Below, piece by piece: positions 1,098-10,704 of a stretch of DNA of 16,878 nucleotides (position 1 is the first letter of the stretch; each line of letters begins with the position of its first letter). The notes beneath the pieces were generated by a model, which was not told the DNA's origin, searched no databases, and was given only the letters and a program-made list of their open reading frames with translations. Both the position numbers and the translations under genes were made by a program. The DNA is from an uncultured Polymorphobacter sp. (GTDB lineage: Bacteria > Pseudomonadota > Alphaproteobacteria > Sphingomonadales > Sphingomonadaceae), in the NCBI GenBank assembly GCA_937894055.1, contig CALDHQ010000310.1, positions 1-16,878 of the forward strand, read 5' to 3'.

Positions 1098-2009
1098 TCA
1101 ACGCATAGCGTGGTTGACGCTCACGGCAAGTGCCGATGCGTTTGCAACCGCCGCGTCGGGCAAAAATGCCGACGGCAGGAAGGCGGCGCCGCAGCTGCGA
1201 TGCACCAGTCGGATGGGGGCACGGGTGCGCGCGACCAGCCAGTGATCGGCCCAATGCTGGATGGCGACCAGCACGCCGTACAGGTCGAGCCCGCGCGGCG
1301 TCAGCCAATAGCCCTCCCCGCCCGGCGTCAGCAGCCCGAGCGCCTGCAATCGCTCAAGCCGGTTCGACAATATGTTGGCGGCAATACCGGTGGCGTCGCG
1401 CAACGCCCCGAAGCGCCGCACGCGCATGAAGGCGCAGACGAGGATTTCGATGCCCCATTTGTCACCGAAGATGTCGAGGCTGGCGGCAAGCCATGGCAAC
1501 GCTTGCCCGTCGGCGCTGTCGAGGCTTGAACGCCGCGTCGCGCGCTGTTTGGCCGGCAGCGCCGCAACGCCGCGGCCGGTAACCTGCAGTGCGACGCCGC
1601 GCGCGTCGGCATCTGCACCGCACGCCGCACATGCCATCACGGCGCGCAAGGTGCGCCCGCCAAGCAACCGCGCCGGCGGCGGCACAGCACCGTGCGCAGC
1701 CTCCCAGCGCAGCATTTCGTGAAGCACCGGCAGGAATGCCTCGCCCGCCGGGGTCAGGCGATATTCGTGGCGCAGCGGTCGCAGGCAATACGGCAGCTTG
1801 ACCACCAGCCCGGCACCTTCCAGCGTCCGCAGCCGCAGTGCCGCCAGCCGCGCCGGCACGCCACCGTCGACCAGGGCCGCAAACCGTGTTGCACCGCCCG
1901 CCAGCAACGCCAGCAGCATCAGCGTCCAGCGGTCGCACAGCAGGTCGGCCGCCTGCCGCACCGCGACGAGAATCGCGGCAGTTGCGCGCGGCGACGGCGG
2001 TTCGCTCAC
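1098..2009 (-). CDS. Transcriptional regulator with two tandem HxlR winged-helix domains
   Basis: This 303-aa protein has two HxlR-type winged helix-turn-helix domains in one chain. Domain 1 spans about residues 20-105 (DRWTLMLLALLAG near 26-38, then a RLRTLEGAGLV recognition-helix segment and YRLTPAGEAFLPVL wing). Domain 2 spans about 176-260 (DKWGIEILVCAF near 183, SNRLERLQALGLL, YWLTPRGLDLYGVL). Most HxlR proteins are about 100-150 aa with one domain and dimerise; here two copies are fused, which could give a monomeric or pseudo-dimeric DNA binder. Short Cys motifs follow each domain (CAAC at 127-130 and HRSCG near 270-274), possibly a redox or metal site. The start is GTG at 2009. Its GTGA overlaps by 4 nt the TGA stop of the upstream DUF3237 gene, indicating translational coupling. 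It probably controls its own operon and the divergent Rieske oxygenase; that regulatory target is inferred. Confidence 0.9.
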   Translation of the reverse strand: MSEPPSPRATAAILVAVRQAADLLCDRWTLMLLALLAGGATRFAALVDGGVPARLAALRLRTLEGAGLVVKLPYCLRPLRHEYRLTPAGEAFLPVLHEMLRWEAAHGAVPPPARLLGGRTLRAVMACAACGADADARGVALQVTGRGVAALPAKQRATRRSSLDSADGQALPWLAASLDIFGDKWGIEILVCAFMRVRRFGALRDATGIAANILSNRLERLQALGLLTPGGEGYWLTPRGLDLYGVLVAIQHWADHWLVARTRAPIRLVHRSCGAAFLPSAFLPDAAVANASALAVSVNHAMR

Positions 2010-4052: not shown

Positions 4053-4754
4053 ATGGAACTGCCGATGCACCGGGACGCTAGCCGATCTGCACCCCGCATG
4101 CGCCAATGGTATTTTCCCGTCACCAGCCTGCTGTTGCTGGCGCTGACGCTCATTGGGTTCGGGGACAATCTGGTTACCGACGTCGGCCAGCCGAGCAACC
4201 GCGACCCCAAGTTCATCGTTCACGGATTGTTGTGCGGCGCCTGGATGATTGCGTTGCTGGCGCAGTCCATGCTGGTCAGCCGCGGCAATGTACGACTGCA
4301 TCGCCGCCTCGGCGTCGGGGCGTTCGTCATTGCCATCGGCGTCACGCTGAGCACAATCTGGGTGTTCGTGATGGTGTGGAAGGGCTGGGCGGTGATGACC
4401 CCGGAGGTCAAGGCCAACCGCCTTTTGCTGCCGAGTTTTTCGCTGTTTGTCGGCCTGGCGTGTCTGGCGCGCCGCCGGCCGGACTGGCACAAGCGCCTCA
4501 TCTTCACAGGCACCTTGTTCATGCTCGAACCGGTGCTGGCACGCACTTATGACCCGCTCATTGTGCCGTTGATGGACGGCATGACCGAAGCGCAGATCGA
4601 CGCGGCATTTGTGCCAACATTGCTTGCAGCATGGCTGAGCTTTTTCGCATCGCTGTTCGTCTATGACGCTATGGTCATCCGGCGCATCCATCCGGTGACG
4701 ATCGTGGCGCTGCTGTGGTTTATCGCCGTCTGGGTGACGGTGCAGTTGGTCTAG
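4053..4754 (+). CDS. Conserved seven-helix membrane protein of unknown function
   Basis: This 233-aa protein has about seven predicted membrane segments, near residues 20-36, 55-74, 87-109, 124-139, 149-165, 187-208 and 214-232. Charged loops hold conserved-looking His motifs: IVHGLL (H57), RLHRRLG (H83) and DWHKRL (H146). The layout of a His-plus-helix, LHRRLG and WHKRL resembles DUF2306-like and other small haem- or metal-associated membrane proteins, but I cannot name a family firmly. A strong GGGGGAGG ribosome site at 4036-4043, 9 nt upstream, supports the ATG at 4053 over in-frame ATGs at 4065 and 4098. It ends 18 bp before the convergent AraC regulator gene and starts 84 bp after the oxygenase. 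It could be co-transcribed with the oxygenase, but nothing in the sequence ties it to that function. Confidence 0.8.
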   Translation: MELPMHRDASRSAPRMRQWYFPVTSLLLLALTLIGFGDNLVTDVGQPSNRDPKFIVHGLLCGAWMIALLAQSMLVSRGNVRLHRRLGVGAFVIAIGVTLSTIWVFVMVWKGWAVMTPEVKANRLLLPSFSLFVGLACLARRRPDWHKRLIFTGTLFMLEPVLARTYDPLIVPLMDGMTEAQIDAAFVPTLLAAWLSFFASLFVYDAMVIRRIHPVTIVALLWFIAVWVTVQLV

Positions 4755-4772
4755 TGCAGGGTTGCCGACGGC

Positions 4773-5795
4773 TCAGGCGGCCCGAAGCCCAGGCGCGCGG
4801 CGCCATGCCGACGGGCTGGTCCCGCTCCAGCGCCGGAAGGCCTGGTCGAACGCGGCGTGGCTGGCAAACGCCAGCGCTGCGCTGATTTCACCCACCGGAA
4901 GCCGCGTCATTTCGAGCAGTTCGCGCGCTACGGCAAAGCGGACATCGTCGCGCACCGCTTCGAACGTCAGCCCTTCGGCGACAAGGCGGCGGCGCAGCGT
5001 GCGCGGGGTCAGGCCAAGCGCCGCGGCGGCGCGCGACATTGACGCGTCCTCACCCAGCAATTGCGGGCGCAGCAAATGCCGCAATTTGCGCGATGTCGCG
5101 CCACTGCCCGAACCGAAGGCGCTCCCGGCCTGCTCAAGCAGGCGTACCCGCGCGGCCGGGTCGGCGGATGGCCGCGGGCGGTCGATCGCGGCACCCGGCA
5201 GCACAAGGCAGGTTTGCAGCTGGTTGAAGCGCGGTGCCGCCTTCAGGGCTTGCCGATACGGCGCGACGTCAGCGGGGGTATCGTCGGCGAAATGGATTTC
5301 GATCGGCGCCACCTCCCCGTCCGACAGCGCGCGCACGATCGCACAGCCGATGGCCACACACACCTGATAGAGCTGGCGGCTACCCGGCGCGTTGCCGCCA
5401 TAAATGCCATAGCCGAATGCCACATCGCCATCCATCGGCAGCAAATAGACCACCGCGCCGCTGCAATAGCCGAGTTGCCAGGTGACGAAATCGAGTAGCC
5501 CTTGCCGCAGTGTCGGCGCATGGCACGCCAGATCATGGATCAGCCCGTGCGCATGCCACGGATAGCGTGCGCCGAGCAGCAGCCCGAAATGCGCGCAGCC
5601 GGTCAGTGCCGCAGCGCGTTCGAGCAAAATCAGGCAGTCGGCGAAGTTCAGGCGACTGTCGGGCGTCAGCGCATCAAGGTCGATACCCAGCCCGCGGCTG
5701 ACCTCGGCCGGATCGACGCCGAGGTCGCGCAACAACCCGGCCATCCACGCGAACGCGCCGGCACGCTGGTATGAAACCTCAAGACGGCCGGACAT
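4773..5795 (-). CDS. AraC-family transcriptional regulator with N-terminal arabinose-binding-like domain
   Basis: This 340-aa protein has the architecture of the OruR/ArgR-like branch of AraC regulators. A ligand-sensing domain of the Arabinose_bd type (PF12625-like) covers about residues 20-205, with HAHGLIHDLACHAPTLRQGL at 81-100 as its most typical part. A C-terminal AraC DNA-binding domain has two helix-turn-helix motifs: ASMSRAAAALGLTPRTLRRR (251-270) and GEISAALAFASHAAFDQAF (302-320), then FRRWSGTSPSAWRR. The ATG at 5793-5795 has a GGAGG ribosome site 10 nt upstream. It is divergent from the exported DUF1254/DUF1214 gene with 101 bp between them, so it probably controls that gene, likely as an activator; the inducer is unknown. 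It converges on the membrane protein gene at 4754 with an 18-bp gap. Confidence 0.93.
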   Translation of the reverse strand: MSGRLEVSYQRAGAFAWMAGLLRDLGVDPAEVSRGLGIDLDALTPDSRLNFADCLILLERAAALTGCAHFGLLLGARYPWHAHGLIHDLACHAPTLRQGLLDFVTWQLGYCSGAVVYLLPMDGDVAFGYGIYGGNAPGSRQLYQVCVAIGCAIVRALSDGEVAPIEIHFADDTPADVAPYRQALKAAPRFNQLQTCLVLPGAAIDRPRPSADPAARVRLLEQAGSAFGSGSGATSRKLRHLLRPQLLGEDASMSRAAAALGLTPRTLRRRLVAEGLTFEAVRDDVRFAVARELLEMTRLPVGEISAALAFASHAAFDQAFRRWSGTSPSAWRRAPGLRAA

Positions 5796-5844
5796 GGCGC
5801 CATGTCCTCCAAACTAAAACTGAAGACCGGCATATCTGGTAGCT

Positions 5845-5857
5845 ATTGCGACGCAAT
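5845..5857. promoter_or_regulatory. Perfect 13-bp palindrome between the AraC regulator and DUF1254 genes
   Basis: ATTGCG-A-CGCAAT is an exact inverted repeat in the 101-bp divergent intergenic region, 39 bp before the DUF1254 start. Its place between two divergent genes, one of them a regulator, makes it a candidate operator. AraC proteins more often bind direct repeats, so another regulator is possible. Confidence 0.45.
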
Positions 5858-5896
5858 CCTACAACCCCGTTGCCCAGCAGCAAGGAGTCCCGAAAA

Positions 5897-7441
5897 ATGG
5901 GAAAATCGGTTCAATTTGTCGTCCGTGCATCGCAACTGGCGATCGCCGCGACACTGCTGTCGGTGCCTGCCGTGGCGCAGGTGCTGACCGGTCCGCCGGC
6001 CGATCCCAAGGTCAAATACTCGACCCCGACCCCGCCGGGCGTCGGCACGCCCGACCGCGTCGAAACCAGCCTCGGCACGCTGCGCTTCACCGGCGGCTTC
6101 CCCGACAAGGACACCGCCACCAAGCTGTGGGACAATCTTGATTTCCAGCGCGCGGTGCAGGCCTATCTGCTGGCGCTGCCGCCGGTCAACCAGGCGGCGA
6201 ACCGCAATGCAGTGCGCGCGCTCGGGCCGGTCAACGCGACGATCCCGATCTTCGAGAACCTTGTCGACAGCCGCTCGATCTTCCTGACCGCCAACGACAA
6301 CACCGTCTATTCGTGGGTCTGGGTCGACCTGACCAACGGCCCGCTGGTCGTCGAGATTCCGCCCAAGTCGCTCGGCACGGTCAACGACATGTGGTACCGC
6401 TGGGTCGTCGATGTCGGCATCACCGGCGCCGACAAGGGTGCCGGCGGCAAGTATCTGTTCGTGCCGCCGGGCTATACCGGCGCGATCCCCGACGGCTACA
6501 CCGTCGTCAAACCGCGCACCTTCAACAACTGGATCGTCTGGCGCAATTTCCTCGTCGACGGCTCGACTGCACCCGCCGTTGATCTGGTCCGGAAATACGC
6601 CAAGATCTACCCGCTGGCGTCCGCCGCGACGCCACCGGCATCGATGAACATGGTCAATCTGTCGGGCATGCCGCTCAACAGCGTCGGCCCCGGCGTCAAC
6701 GGCTATTGGGACCTGCTCAACCAGGTCGTGCAGGCCGAACCCGCAGGCTCGCTCGACCCCGTTACCAGCGGGCTGTTCCAGTCGATCGGCATCGTCAAGG
6801 GCCAGCCGTTCGCGCCGGACGCGCGCATGAAGAAGATCCTCGATGATGCCGCCAAGGTCGGCGACGCGACAGCGCGGACGATCTCGTTCCATGCCCGCGA
6901 CCGCATCGGCTTCTACTACCCCGATAGCAACTGGCAGCTGCCGTTCGTCGGCGGCTACACCTTCCAGACCGCGCCGGGTGCGCTCAACCTCGATGGCGCG
7001 GCCTTCTACTATTTCATGGCCACCGGCGTGACGCCGGCGATGGAAGAAAAGATGGTCGGCAAGGGCTCGCAATATGCCTGGACGGCGCGCGACGCGAAGG
7101 GTGAGGCGCTCGACGGCGGCAAGTCCTACCGCCTGCACCTGCCGCCGAACGTACCGGTCAAGGATTTCTGGTCGGTCATCGTCTATAGCGACCAGACGCG
7201 GTCGATGATCCAGACCGACCAGCGCCAGCCCAGCGTCAGCAGCCAGACCAAGGGCCTGCTGGTCAACAAGGATGGCTCGGTCGACGTGTGGTTCGGCCCC
7301 AAGGCGCCCGCCGGCAAGGCGATCAACTGGGTCCAGACGATGCCGGGCACGTCGTGGAACACCATCCTGCGCCTGTACGGCCCGCTTGAGCCCTGGTTCG
7401 CCAAGACCTGGCGCCCGAGCGAAATCGAGCGGATCGACTAG
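5897..7441 (+). CDS. Exported DUF1254/DUF1214 domain protein
   Basis: This 514-aa protein carries a DUF1254 region (about residues 60-210) and a C-terminal DUF1214 region (about 375-510, ending TSWNTILRLYGPLEPWF). Proteins with this pair are widespread, usually exported, and have no settled biochemical function. The N-terminus is a signal peptide: MGKSVQFVVR, a hydrophobic core, then VPAVAQ with likely cleavage after A27. That predicts a periplasmic protein. The ATG at 5897 is chosen because AAGGAG lies 9 nt upstream (5882-5887) and it places the signal peptide at the extreme N-terminus. An upstream in-frame start at 5846 would put a 17-residue basic extension before the signal and would lie inside the palindrome. 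It is divergent from the AraC regulator that probably controls it. Confidence 0.9.
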   Translation: MGKSVQFVVRASQLAIAATLLSVPAVAQVLTGPPADPKVKYSTPTPPGVGTPDRVETSLGTLRFTGGFPDKDTATKLWDNLDFQRAVQAYLLALPPVNQAANRNAVRALGPVNATIPIFENLVDSRSIFLTANDNTVYSWVWVDLTNGPLVVEIPPKSLGTVNDMWYRWVVDVGITGADKGAGGKYLFVPPGYTGAIPDGYTVVKPRTFNNWIVWRNFLVDGSTAPAVDLVRKYAKIYPLASAATPPASMNMVNLSGMPLNSVGPGVNGYWDLLNQVVQAEPAGSLDPVTSGLFQSIGIVKGQPFAPDARMKKILDDAAKVGDATARTISFHARDRIGFYYPDSNWQLPFVGGYTFQTAPGALNLDGAAFYYFMATGVTPAMEEKMVGKGSQYAWTARDAKGEALDGGKSYRLHLPPNVPVKDFWSVIVYSDQTRSMIQTDQRQPSVSSQTKGLLVNKDGSVDVWFGPKAPAGKAINWVQTMPGTSWNTILRLYGPLEPWFAKTWRPSEIERID

Positions 7442-7550: not shown

Positions 7551-8141
7551 ATGAATGGCGAAGTCGAAACACGGATCGAAACCTGGCTGCATCGCGCCAA
7601 GAAGAACGCCGGCTGGCTGATAGCGCTCGGCGTGCTCGAGTTGCTGGTCGGACTTGCCGCAATATTCTCGCCGCTGATTGCCGGCGTCGCCGTGGTCATC
7701 ACGGTCGGCGTGGTCATGCTGATTGTCGGTATCACCCGCATCATCAGCGCCTTCATGGCGGGGTCCTTCGGCAGCGGCGTGCTGGCGTTCCTGTGGGGGC
7801 TGCTGGTGACGGTTGCCGGCTATTATTTCGTGACGCATCCGGCGCTGGGGCTGAAGTCGCTGACGCTGTTTGTCGCGGTGGCACTGGCCATTGACGGCGT
7901 CATGCGCGTCATCATGTCGTTCCAGATGAAGCCGGCGAATGGCTGGGGCTGGATGCTGTTCGGCGGCATTGTCTCGGTCATTCTGGCGGTGATGGTGTTC
8001 AACCAGTTCCCGGTTTCGGCGGTCTGGCTGGTCGGCACGCTCGTCGGCATCAGCGTGCTGTTCAACGGCTTCACGACGCTGACGGTGGCAATGGCCGCAC
8101 GCCGGCTGGCGAGCGCCGGGGTCGAGCGCCTACAGGGCTGA
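7551..8141 (+). CDS. HdeD family (DUF308) membrane protein
   Basis: This 196-aa protein has six predicted membrane helices, near residues 21-39, 43-65, 76-94, 101-122, 133-150 and 156-181. The helices form two similar halves, as in HdeD/DUF308 proteins. Typical features are WLIALGVLELLVGLAAI, GVVMLIVGITRIISAF with its polar helix ends, and the repeat-like GISVLFNGFTTL near the end. The family is named for the E. coli acid-resistance protein HdeD; in most bacteria the role is only inferred to be membrane stress tolerance. A GGGGAG ribosome site lies 7 nt before the ATG. It is 109 bp downstream of the DUF1254 gene, with a GC hairpin between, so separate transcription is likely. Its TGA stop directly abuts the stop of the convergent LuxR-hydrolase gene. 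Confidence 0.9.
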   Translation: MNGEVETRIETWLHRAKKNAGWLIALGVLELLVGLAAIFSPLIAGVAVVITVGVVMLIVGITRIISAFMAGSFGSGVLAFLWGLLVTVAGYYFVTHPALGLKSLTLFVAVALAIDGVMRVIMSFQMKPANGWGWMLFGGIVSVILAVMVFNQFPVSAVWLVGTLVGISVLFNGFTTLTVAMAARRLASAGVERLQG

Positions 8142-9971
8142 TCAGGCGGCGCCGAGCGCGGCGACCACTTCCTGCGTGTGCGTGATGTGCAGGAAGCGGC
8201 CGCCGTCGGCGACGGTTTCAAACCGCGCGCCCGGCAGTGTCGAGCGCCAGAACGCAGCGGCGTCGTCAAACGCATAAAGCGGATCCTGCGCGCCGGTCAG
8301 CACCACCCAGCCTGACGCATCGGGCAGCGCCGGCGGCCGCGCGCCACCGCCGTGCGCCAGCATTTCCGCCAGAAACCCATGCATCCCGAGCGCCGACTGG
8401 CGGCCGGCGCGCACCAGGTCGGCGATGACCTGCGGGTCTGCGAGCGCTGCCGTGTCGACGGGGCTGCCGACAACGCTTTCGCGGTAGAGCCGGGCAATTA
8501 CCGCTGAATTGGAGCGCCGGGACATCAACCGGGCAAACGCATTCGCCAACATCGGCGTGCCGAAGAACAGCGCCTTGCCGCGACCCATCATCCCGACATG
8601 GCGCCGGTCGAGATCGACCGGCGGGTCAGGGCCGAGCAGCACGCCGCCGGTGACGCGGTCGGGGTAAGCGGCGGCGCAGTGCAGCGCCGCCGTACTACCG
8701 CCGCGCACCAGCAGCCGCACCTGCTTCAACCCGAGCGCGTCGAGAATATCGCCGAAATCGCTGACAGCGGCTGCATAGGGATCGCCCGCAACGGCATCGC
8801 TGAGCCCGAAGCCGGCACGTTCAAACAGGATCGGCCGGAAACCGCGCGCCTGCAGCGCCGCAATCAGCGCCTGCGGCTGGTGGCGGCCCGCGACCGAGTT
8901 GTGAAAAACGATCACCGGCACCGCCCCCGTCGGGCCATGGTCGGCCACGGCAATGCATCCGCTGCCCTTTCTGCGGGCGAGCAGGCGCAGCGGTTCGGTC
9001 TGCCCGCCGACGTGCATGATTTCGATGCTGCACGCCGTGACCAGTCCGGCGAGCGCATCGACTTCGGCAACGATGCGCGCCAGATCGACGGCATTGGCGA
9101 CACCGCACGCCGCGAAAATCAGCTTGAGATCGGCCTTGCCGCTATGCGGTGACTTGCCTTGCGCTGCGGCAGCGGCATCGCGCGTCGCGCCGTTGGCGAT
9201 CTCGCGCGCCAGTTGCGCCTGACCCGGCGTCAGCGCGAACAGGTCGGAAAACAGCCGCGCAGCATTCTCGGGCGGACGCCAGTCACCGCCGGCGGCCGCG
9301 AGCAGCCGGCGCACCAGATCGGTCTGGCGCTGCGCTCCGACCTTGTCCATCACCAGCGCAATCTGCTTGCGTGCGGTTTCATAGGTTACGCCGGCCTCGG
9401 TCGCGGCTGCGCGCAGATTGCTGCGCCGCGCCAGCGCCGCCACCAGCCGGGTTTGCGACGGCGTCAGCGCATAGATTTGCGCGGCGCGTTCCCAGGCCAG
9501 CGCGCCGGGGCGAAACGCGATCACCGCATAGCTGGCCCGGCCATCGGCCAACACGGCGCGGACATCGGGCGCAATCGGCCAGTGCGCGGCGAGCGCCGGT
9601 GCGGCCGCTGCAAGCGCCACCGGCCGGCCGGTGCGATCATCGGCAATCGCCGAAACGCTCGGCCGTTCGGGGGTCAGCCGGCGCACCACCGCCGCGAGCG
9701 GATCGACGCCGTCGAGCCAGACGACAAAGCGCGGATCGGCGATGACGATGCTGCCGTCGCGGTCGCACGCCGCCGAGGCGAAACTGTCGGCCTGCAAATC
9801 GGCAGGCGGGCTGCGCGTGCCGACCGCGTCGGTGGCGGCGGCGAGCAGTTCGTCGGGCGCCTTGGCCATCGCTTCGCCCCAGCCCTCATGGTCGTCGGCA
9901 AGCAACGCCAGCAACGCATCATCGGGCGTGGCGCGACGGAACCGATCAAGGAAGGCAGCAGCGCGGTTCAT
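8142..9971 (-). CDS. PAS-like / double LuxR-type HTH / alpha-beta hydrolase fusion protein
   Basis: This 609-aa protein joins a transcription-factor-like half to an enzyme half. Residues about 60-160 look like a degenerate PAS sensor (CDRDGSIVIADPRF, then a closing AFRPG strand). A LuxR-type helix-turn-helix follows at about 167-225 (YALTPSQTRLVAALARRS, GVTYETARKQIALVMDKVGA, TDLVRRLL). A second, more diverged copy lies at 245-304 (FALTPGQAQLAREIANGAT, HSGKADLKLIFAACGV, DLARIV). Residues about 320-609 form an alpha/beta hydrolase: a VIVFHNSVAG oxyanion-type loop, RAGFGLSD, nucleophile elbow VRGGSTAA with S426, acid D563 in GAQDPLY, and base H595 or H598. The elbow has Ala instead of the last Gly of GxSxG. 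No clear ribosome site precedes the ATG; a candidate promoter suggests a leaderless mRNA. The hydrolase may sense or turn over the effector; this is inference. Confidence 0.88.
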   Translation of the reverse strand: MNRAAAFLDRFRRATPDDALLALLADDHEGWGEAMAKAPDELLAAATDAVGTRSPPADLQADSFASAACDRDGSIVIADPRFVVWLDGVDPLAAVVRRLTPERPSVSAIADDRTGRPVALAAAAPALAAHWPIAPDVRAVLADGRASYAVIAFRPGALAWERAAQIYALTPSQTRLVAALARRSNLRAAATEAGVTYETARKQIALVMDKVGAQRQTDLVRRLLAAAGGDWRPPENAARLFSDLFALTPGQAQLAREIANGATRDAAAAAQGKSPHSGKADLKLIFAACGVANAVDLARIVAEVDALAGLVTACSIEIMHVGGQTEPLRLLARRKGSGCIAVADHGPTGAVPVIVFHNSVAGRHQPQALIAALQARGFRPILFERAGFGLSDAVAGDPYAAAVSDFGDILDALGLKQVRLLVRGGSTAALHCAAAYPDRVTGGVLLGPDPPVDLDRRHVGMMGRGKALFFGTPMLANAFARLMSRRSNSAVIARLYRESVVGSPVDTAALADPQVIADLVRAGRQSALGMHGFLAEMLAHGGGARPPALPDASGWVVLTGAQDPLYAFDDAAAFWRSTLPGARFETVADGGRFLHITHTQEVVAALGAA

Positions 9972-10006: not shown

Positions 10007-10023
10007 ACCCCCCAAATGGGGGT
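10007..10023. promoter_or_regulatory. ACCCCC/GGGGGT inverted repeat, candidate LuxR-type operator
   Basis: ACCCCC at 10007-10012 is the exact inverse of GGGGGT at 10018-10023, with CAAAT between. It abuts the putative -35 box of the LuxR-hydrolase gene and is centred about 44-45 bp before the predicted start of transcription. That is close to the -42.5 position of classical lux boxes. This suggests autoregulation, or regulation by a LuxR-type activator; it is unproven. Confidence 0.45.
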
Positions 10024-10066: not shown

Positions 10067-10180
10067 GCGGCGTCAGCGCCGCGACGAATCCGGGCGCACC
10101 GCATGCAAATGCGGCCCGCCTGACCAACTGGAAGCCGGCCGGACCCCCTAACCCACGGCCGGCTTCCATATTTTTCTTTT
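10067..10180 (+). ncRNA. Candidate small RNA: three hairpins ending in an intrinsic terminator
   Basis: On the plus strand three perfect hairpins follow one another: GCGGCG-TCAG-CGCCGC (10067-10082), CCGCAT-GCAA-ATGCGG with a GNRA tetraloop (10099-10114), and the 13-bp terminator stem at 10129-10168 with its T-rich tail. No plus-strand protein gene precedes this terminator: upstream is the 5' end of a minus-strand gene. A short independent transcript beginning somewhere in 9990-10066 would explain the structure. No convincing plus-strand promoter is visible, so the 5' end given is only the first hairpin. Confidence 0.4.
10129..10180 (+). terminator. Strong Rho-independent terminator (plus strand)
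   Basis: TGGAAGCCGGCCG (10129-10141) pairs perfectly over 13 bp with CGGCCGGCTTCCA (10156-10168) across a 14-nt loop. It is followed by TATTTTTCTTTT. The T-tract is on the plus strand only; read on the minus strand the hairpin has no T-run. No plus-strand gene ends here. Confidence 0.85.
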
Positions 10181-10254: not shown

Positions 10255-10284
10255 CCCCGCCGGCCGGGCGCTGCGCTGAGTCCG

Positions 10285-10327
10285 CGGCTAAGCCGAAATT
10301 TGCGAAGGGCAAATTTCGGCTTAGCCG
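10285..10327. repeat. 19-bp perfect inverted repeat overlapping the NTF2-like stop codon
   Basis: The arms 10285-10303 and 10309-10327 are exact inverse complements (19 of 19) around a 5-nt loop. The core is GCCGAAATTTGC / GCAAATTTCGGC. The repeat contains the TAA stop of the minus-strand NTF2-like gene. No T-tract follows on the minus strand, so it is not a standard terminator. It could protect the mRNA 3' end, end transcription with other factors, or be a REP-like element. Confidence 0.7.
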
Positions 10328-10704
10328 GCGGCCAGCTGGGCCCCCATCATCGCATGCAGCATATTGATCGCCTTCAACGGCCGCACCATCACCTTGAAAC
10401 GGCTGATCTTGCCGGCGTCGTTCCACCAGATCATGTCGATTCCGTTGATCTTGATGCCGTCAATCTCGTTCTCGAACTCGAGAATCGCCGAGTTGTCGGC
10501 GCGCCATTCGCCGACATAGCGGAAGCCCGCGCCGCCAAGCACCGAGCCCGCCGCGCCGAGATACTTCAGCGTGATCGCCTTACCGCGCTGCGGCGTGTGG
10601 ACCACCGGCGATTCGAACACCACGTCATCGGCGAGCATCGCGTCGAGCGCGCCGTGATCGTGCGATTTCATATAGGCATACCAGCCTTCGACAGGGTGAC
10701 CCAT
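10321..10704 (-). CDS. NTF2-like / SnoaL-like superfamily protein
   Basis: This 127-aa protein has the cone-shaped NTF2-like fold signature: an N-terminal helix with WYAYMKSHDHGALDAMLADDVVFESP (residues about 8-33), then a curved sheet including EFENEIDGIKINGIDMIWWN (76-95) and a final KISRFKVMVRPLKAI strand (about 98-112). The family includes ketosteroid isomerases, SnoaL-type cyclases and many small ligand-binding proteins; the sequence does not reveal which. Its ATG overlaps by one base the TGA stop of the upstream S9 peptidase gene (TGATG), so the two are translationally coupled. It is the last gene of the M24-S9-NTF2 operon. A role in peptide metabolism is not obvious. Its stop codon lies inside a 19-bp hairpin. 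Confidence 0.85.
   Translation of the reverse strand: MGHPVEGWYAYMKSHDHGALDAMLADDVVFESPVVHTPQRGKAITLKYLGAAGSVLGGAGFRYVGEWRADNSAILEFENEIDGIKINGIDMIWWNDAGKISRFKVMVRPLKAINMLHAMMGAQLAAG

Follow-up and report, generated by a model that had tools for sequence, protein, structure and literature searches.

Whether a bacterial regulator that carries an alpha/beta-hydrolase fold destroys its own signal or only recognizes one is the question raised by a reading frame (8142..9971, minus strand, 609 amino acids) in a stretch of 16,878 nucleotides, hereafter the window, from an uncultured Polymorphobacter sp. (contig 310 of a 724-contig, 3.18-Mb assembly). An initial annotation described its product as a PAS-like sensor joined to two LuxR-type helix-turn-helix (HTH) segments and a serine hydrolase with the triad S426-D563-H595/H598, which would hydrolyze its own signal and thereby reset itself. 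The evidence presented here points instead to a twin-HTH regulator with a pseudo-hydrolase domain.

The reading frame is a genuine gene, and purifying selection acts on it. Compared with the nearest named relative found, Polymorphobacter arshaanensis (95% identity over residues 1-608, best segment), 581/610 positions are identical (stop included), and the whole gene gives a dN of 0.025 and a dS of 0.363. The hydrolase part is likewise under purifying selection, since residues 335-608 give a dN of 0.032 and a dS of 0.370. A protein search (E ≤ 1e-5) returned 156 matches; most of the best 120 cover at least 95% of the query, with identities mostly between 45 and 90%, and all residue tallies expressed below as fractions of 120 refer to the best 120 of these 156 matches, the window protein counted in.

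An AlphaFold2 model of the 609-residue protein, built on a 91-sequence alignment (mean pLDDT 93, pTM 0.92), and profile matches to solved HTHs bore out the proposed layout, namely a sensor-like part, two LuxR-type HTHs and then an alpha/beta-hydrolase fold. The chain begins in the model with a helical bundle (residues 3-50; 9822..9965, minus strand; helices 3-17, 20-26, 28-37, and 39-50), followed by a sensor-type domain (residues 57-153; 9513..9803, minus strand) for which PAS-like is a tentative fold label. Its predicted strands (57-60, 64-69, 75-78, 105-110, 117-123, and 148-153) and helices (80-86, 93-97, and 135-142) come in an order compatible with PAS, yet no Pfam PAS match was obtained. 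A fold search with the whole model was filled by hydrolases, mostly over residues 323-609, and was uninformative for the N-terminal domain. In the accessible text of a study on tandem luxR genes, as distinct from tandem HTHs, an autoinducer-binding domain is among the criteria that define LuxR homologs (PMC4288048). The Pfam scan of the window protein (E 0.1) detected no such domain (PF03472), so that by this criterion it is not a LuxR quorum-sensing receptor.

Both HTHs adopt a complete four-helix fold in the model. HTH1 (residues 167-228; 9288..9473, minus strand) comprises helices 171-183, 186-193, 197-211, and 216-228, and HTH2 (residues 245-312; 9036..9239, minus strand) helices 249-259, 264-270, 275-289, and 294-312; the second HTH fold, for which the initial annotation had named structure prediction as the test, is thus present over residues 249-312. 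When residues 1-312 were searched as a profile built from 12 twin-HTH proteins, the best solved match was the HTH of EL222, at HTH2 (E 1.9e-8), where NarL and ComA also match, while GerE (E 0.0003) and FixJ (E 0.0066) were matched at HTH1. The HTH1 and HTH2 profiles align with each other and both align with the single HTH of related regulators. Pfam GerE matched 15/49 members scanned at E ≤ 0.01, single-HTH ones included; the single-HTH relatives P0121 and L014 exceed its cut-off, another relative (P0083) passes it at 248-301, in the HTH2 region, and the window protein gave no GerE match of its own in the Pfam scan. Judged by sequence and predicted fold, both domains belong with the four-helix HTHs of the LuxR/GerE type. 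The likeness to the NarL/FixJ/GerE superfamily (HTH1 to GerE and FixJ, HTH2 to NarL and ComA) comes with two differences, as the window protein has no receiver domain in the Pfam scan and its HTHs lie mid-chain, in tandem. Regulators of the EL222 type, in which a LOV domain senses light, resemble it in placing a LuxR-type HTH after a PAS/LOV or sensor-like domain; the window protein differs in having two HTHs, not one, and a hydrolase-fold domain of 280 residues after them.

The initial annotation had also regarded HTH2 as the more diverged of the pair. This holds for one position of the recognition helix, residue 281, which is Asp or Glu in 110/120 where EL222 has a recognition-helix His; the remark is countered by conservation within the family, which is no lower for HTH2 (mean majority frequency 0.72) than for HTH1 (0.69), and by HTH2 providing the best match to a solved HTH. 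The recognition-helix residues R201, K202, K279, and K283 are conserved, the latter two being basic: in HTH1, R201 is Arg in 120/120, K202 is retained in 117 and T199 in 114, and in HTH2 K279 is Lys in 119/120. As judged from its recognition helix, HTH1 looks the more canonical of the two; that HTH2 makes no contact with DNA is a guess.

The C-terminal domain (residues 327-609; 8145..8993, minus strand) has both the characteristic fold and the sequence profile of the alpha/beta hydrolase superfamily, and lacks the canonical nucleophile and catalytic His. Its active-site register was taken from profile alignment to the solved hydrolases 9wlv and 1brt and agrees with the positions of strand, elbow and helix in the model; pocket geometry and side-chain positions are deduced solely from alignment and secondary structure. 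At the nucleophile elbow (8700..8705, minus strand), between strand 418-422 and the helix that starts at 426, R423 occupies the position before the nucleophile and G424 the nucleophile slot, as the Ser of 9wlv (GWSGG) and that of 1brt (GFS) fall on profile position 425, which is residue 424 of the window protein. Hence, the window protein has Gly where a small-x-Nu-x-small elbow would hold Ser, Cys, or Asp. In the best 120 matches this slot holds mainly Gly (50), Cys (34) or Thr (28), with Ser in 5 and Ala in 3, and R423 is present in 116/120. R423 was considered as the slot residue and rejected, because the small-x-Nu-x-small pattern, the relatives with Ser424 and the profile alignment all indicate 424.

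The catalytic-His slot, in the loop that follows the final strand, is occupied by R592 (8196..8198, minus strand), onto which the His of 9wlv and 1brt align; it is Arg in 77, His in 38, Asn in 3, Leu in 1 and a gap in 1 of the best 120 matches. The acid slot is retained, with D563 (8283..8285, minus strand) aligned with the Asp of both solved enzymes and Asp in 83/120. With respect to hydrolases of the esterase/haloperoxidase/epoxide-hydrolase type (9wlv, 1va4, and 1brt), the window protein resembles them in the whole fold, the acid residue and a DRxGxGxS-type loop, and departs from them in its Gly nucleophile slot, its Arg in the His slot and its fusion to two HTHs.

Of the triad put forward in the initial annotation, only the acid D563 sits in its slot. 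S426 (8694..8696, minus strand) was rejected as nucleophile, since it lies two residues beyond slot 424, as the first residue of the model helix 426-435, and corresponds to the "small" +2 position, being Ser in only 48/120, Ala in 27 and Thr in 21. H595 and H598 (8178..8189, minus strand; model helices 594-597 and 599-608) are highly conserved (His in 114/120 and 116/120, respectively) and lie outside the catalytic-His slot. A self-resetting regulator, in which an active S426-D563-H595/H598 serine hydrolase destroys the signal, is favored by the hydrolase fold, by D563 in the acid slot, by the conservation of both His and by the joint occurrence of S426, D563, and H595 in 40/120; given the location and variability of residue 426 and an Arg in the catalytic-His slot, it is very improbable. 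Hydrolysis of its own signal is thus unsupported for the window protein, in which Gly424 takes the place of the nucleophile and Arg592 that of the catalytic His.

How far the loss of these residues extends was addressed in two surveys. At the order level, 34/296 genomes and 22/80 genera matched a 16-row profile at E ≤ 1e-20; 30 loci were fetched and 29 read, one (L050) having been left out on account of an internal stop, and these reading frames include the window's own (L035) and a few repeats of proteins already in the set. A Ser or Asp nucleophile together with His was found in 0/29 of the order-wide HTH-hydrolase reading frames. Cys together with His occurs in a single one (L037), in which the acid is absent; two others (L056 and L059) have the His without a nucleophile, and four (L044, L048, L057, and L058) have Cys or Ser without the His. 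The distant twin-HTH proteins L006-L008 show the same Gly/Arg state at 424/592. In the single-HTH LuxR-hydrolase fusions of Sphingomonadales (P0121, P0122, L011, L014, L049, and L051-L064) the HTH precedes the hydrolase fold and, as in the window protein, every row is without the combination of Ser, Cys, or Asp with His; they differ from it in having one HTH and in a His slot that holds Gln, Ser, Glu, His or another residue, never Arg. Examples of elbows among single-HTH members are GHAAG, GHNMGG, and GLVTG, and of His loops GAGQ and GAGS.

As a positive control, 9/12 hydrolase reading frames from outside the family, recovered in the same search, retain a Ser or Asp nucleophile with His, and 3/12 (L012, L017, and L019) lack this pair. 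The latter are hydrolase-fold proteins of 334-358 amino acids with the elbow HHTGA and a His loop GGID or GGVD, and in related genomes apparently form another group of non-canonical alpha/beta hydrolases. A 520-residue open frame (L032), longer than a hydrolase domain, has a hydrolase fold that keeps Ser and His (LALSAGA and GRNH).

In the class-level survey 14/289 genomes matched and, among 10 HTH-fused reading frames (a wrong frame, L084, is excluded from this count), 3 keep Ser or Asp with His (L081, L082, and L083) and 7 do not. Judging from these alignments, the order-level and twin-HTH proteins read have, as a rule, lost the canonical pair; this does not extend to every HTH-hydrolase fusion, because L081, L082, and L083 keep it. 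Among the best 120 of the 156 matches, a Cys/His pair at 424/592 is present in 31 and Ser or Cys with Asp and His in 4. Together with L081-L083 these proteins indicate that the architecture can accompany a possibly active site, which counts against a purely sensory role, as does the lack of the pair in 3/12 control hydrolases.

The same proteins bear on an unlikely explanation, a non-canonical catalysis in which Arg423, Arg592, Asp563, and His595/598 would carry out pocket chemistry or a related reaction, with cysteine being used in the Cys/His branch. The strong conservation of R423, H595, and H598 would fit it, and so would the exchange of Gly/Arg for Cys/His at 424/592, which goes by clade; on the other hand, the nucleophile slot of the window protein holds no nucleophile and the Cys/His branch is mostly devoid of the acid, residue 563 being Tyr or Phe in 25/31 (best 120 of 156). 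In addition, the Cys/His pairing follows clades, and a sign test would need more independent contrasts than the tree offers (1-2 for Cys424 and 4-5 for His592). An independent coupling of Cys424 with His592 was set aside on these grounds; the pairing may reflect simple inheritance.

On the basis of these alignments and the model, the window protein is probably a LuxR/GerE-family regulator with tandem HTHs and a non-catalytic hydrolase-fold domain that would bind a ligand as a sensor. We infer that it would be located in the cytoplasm, where a small molecule would bind in the old active-site pocket of the hydrolase-fold domain. The ligand is perhaps anionic or polar, because R363, R423, R521, Q525 and, in the branch of the window protein, R592 are conserved; R363 (8883..8885, minus strand), in the loop after strand 351-356, is Arg in 120/120, and Q525 and R521 are retained in 120/120 and 119/120, respectively. 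Ligand binding would then present the HTH pair differently to DNA, and HTH2 might be a weak DNA binder or might form, together with HTH1, the equivalent of a dimer within a single chain. Sensing could alternatively reside in the N-terminal PAS-like domain, which is present in the model and conserved (mean 0.64 over residues 51-157), the hydrolase-fold domain being a mere scaffold or dimerization module; this is doubtful, as conserved polar residues (R363, Q525, and R423) would occupy candidate pocket positions and the clade-specific swaps at both active-site slots look like pocket tuning.

If the hydrolase-fold domain is indeed a sensor, a wider proposal can be advanced tentatively, as a possibility that we hold with limited confidence: an alpha/beta hydrolase turned receptor, with catalysis lost, would define a large and as yet undescribed class of one-component regulators, distributed in Sphingomonadales and in some few further Alphaproteobacteria. 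Slots 424 and 592 would have been re-tuned by clade in these proteins (Gly/Arg, Thr/Arg, Cys/His, and rarely Ser/His/Asp), each for different small molecules, and the twin HTHs would be a built-in dimer in one subfamily. Hydrolase-fold receptors are used in signaling elsewhere, as in RsbQ and the plant proteins D14, KAI2, and GID1, the last of which has lost catalysis; these act via separate partner proteins, whereas in the window protein the hydrolase fold and the HTH modules are parts of one chain. Searches of the open-licence PMC literature, as far as its text is accessible, turned up no account of a fusion between a LuxR HTH and an alpha/beta-hydrolase fold.

Were the proposal true, these proteins would be bacterial, DNA-binding equivalents of the plant hormone receptors that derive from hydrolases. 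Several of them bear the public-source name "alpha/beta fold hydrolase", which would mislead if they are receptors, and they would then constitute a set of regulators with open-ended pockets awaiting ligand discovery. The Gly/Arg, Cys/His, and Ser/His/Asp clades at the same two slots offer a natural series for the change from enzyme site to sensor site, and twin HTHs in one chain a test of whether LuxR-type regulators read a palindrome without dimerizing.

The genes around the regulator gave no hint of the ligand. A DUF308 gene (7551-8141, plus strand), HdeD-like below the NCBIfam cut-off, adjoins it in convergent orientation, and a SnoaL-like gene (10321-10704, minus strand) lies upstream on the same strand. 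According to a simple gene caller, the neighbors in the window are shared with the P. arshaanensis region (L065) and are absent from the P. multimanifer locus (L003) and from more distant twin-HTH loci, except for one AraC-type gene in L072. Two loci (L066 and L070) have neighbors in common with each other, and other loci are connected by a small number of generic paralogue clusters; no conserved neighbor hinting at the ligand was found among the loci compared.

The operator proposed in the initial annotation (10007-10023) is an inverted repeat, found also in the region upstream of the gene in P. arshaanensis (L002), and the P. multimanifer locus L003 contains no match to CCCCNAANTGGGG at any position. 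In the genome, the pattern ACCCCCNNNNNGGGGGT occurs at one place besides 10007-10023, against one place for a control pattern; counted in full, the wider pattern has two places and the control one. The repeat itself stands, and the candidate operator is not distinguished from chance because its pattern does not stand out from the control.

Other features of the window deserve mention. A long hairpin (10274-10338) at the 3' end of the SnoaL-like gene contains the half-site GCTAAGCCGAAATTTG at 10287-10302 and, reversed, at 10310-10325; this half-site recurs once elsewhere in the genome, with a single mismatch, and the hairpin has Rfam microRNA matches far under gathering scores. At 10130-10179, a G+C-rich inverted repeat (GGAAGCCGGCCG ... 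CGGCCGGCTTCC) with a T-rich run behind it on the plus strand looks terminator-like by eye; both flanking genes are on the minus strand, and it could end an unannotated plus-strand transcript. Three genes (4053-7441) separate a Rieske oxygenase gene from the DUF308 gene, at 4053-4754 (plus strand), 4773-5795 (an AraC-family regulator, minus strand) and 5846-7441 (a DUF1254/DUF1214 protein, plus strand); in P. arshaanensis (L065) the counterparts of the Rieske oxygenase and DUF308 genes are adjacent, as judged from simple gene calls. A second tandem-HTH regulator in the window is encoded at 1098-2009 (minus strand), an HxlR family protein in which two stretches match HxlR.
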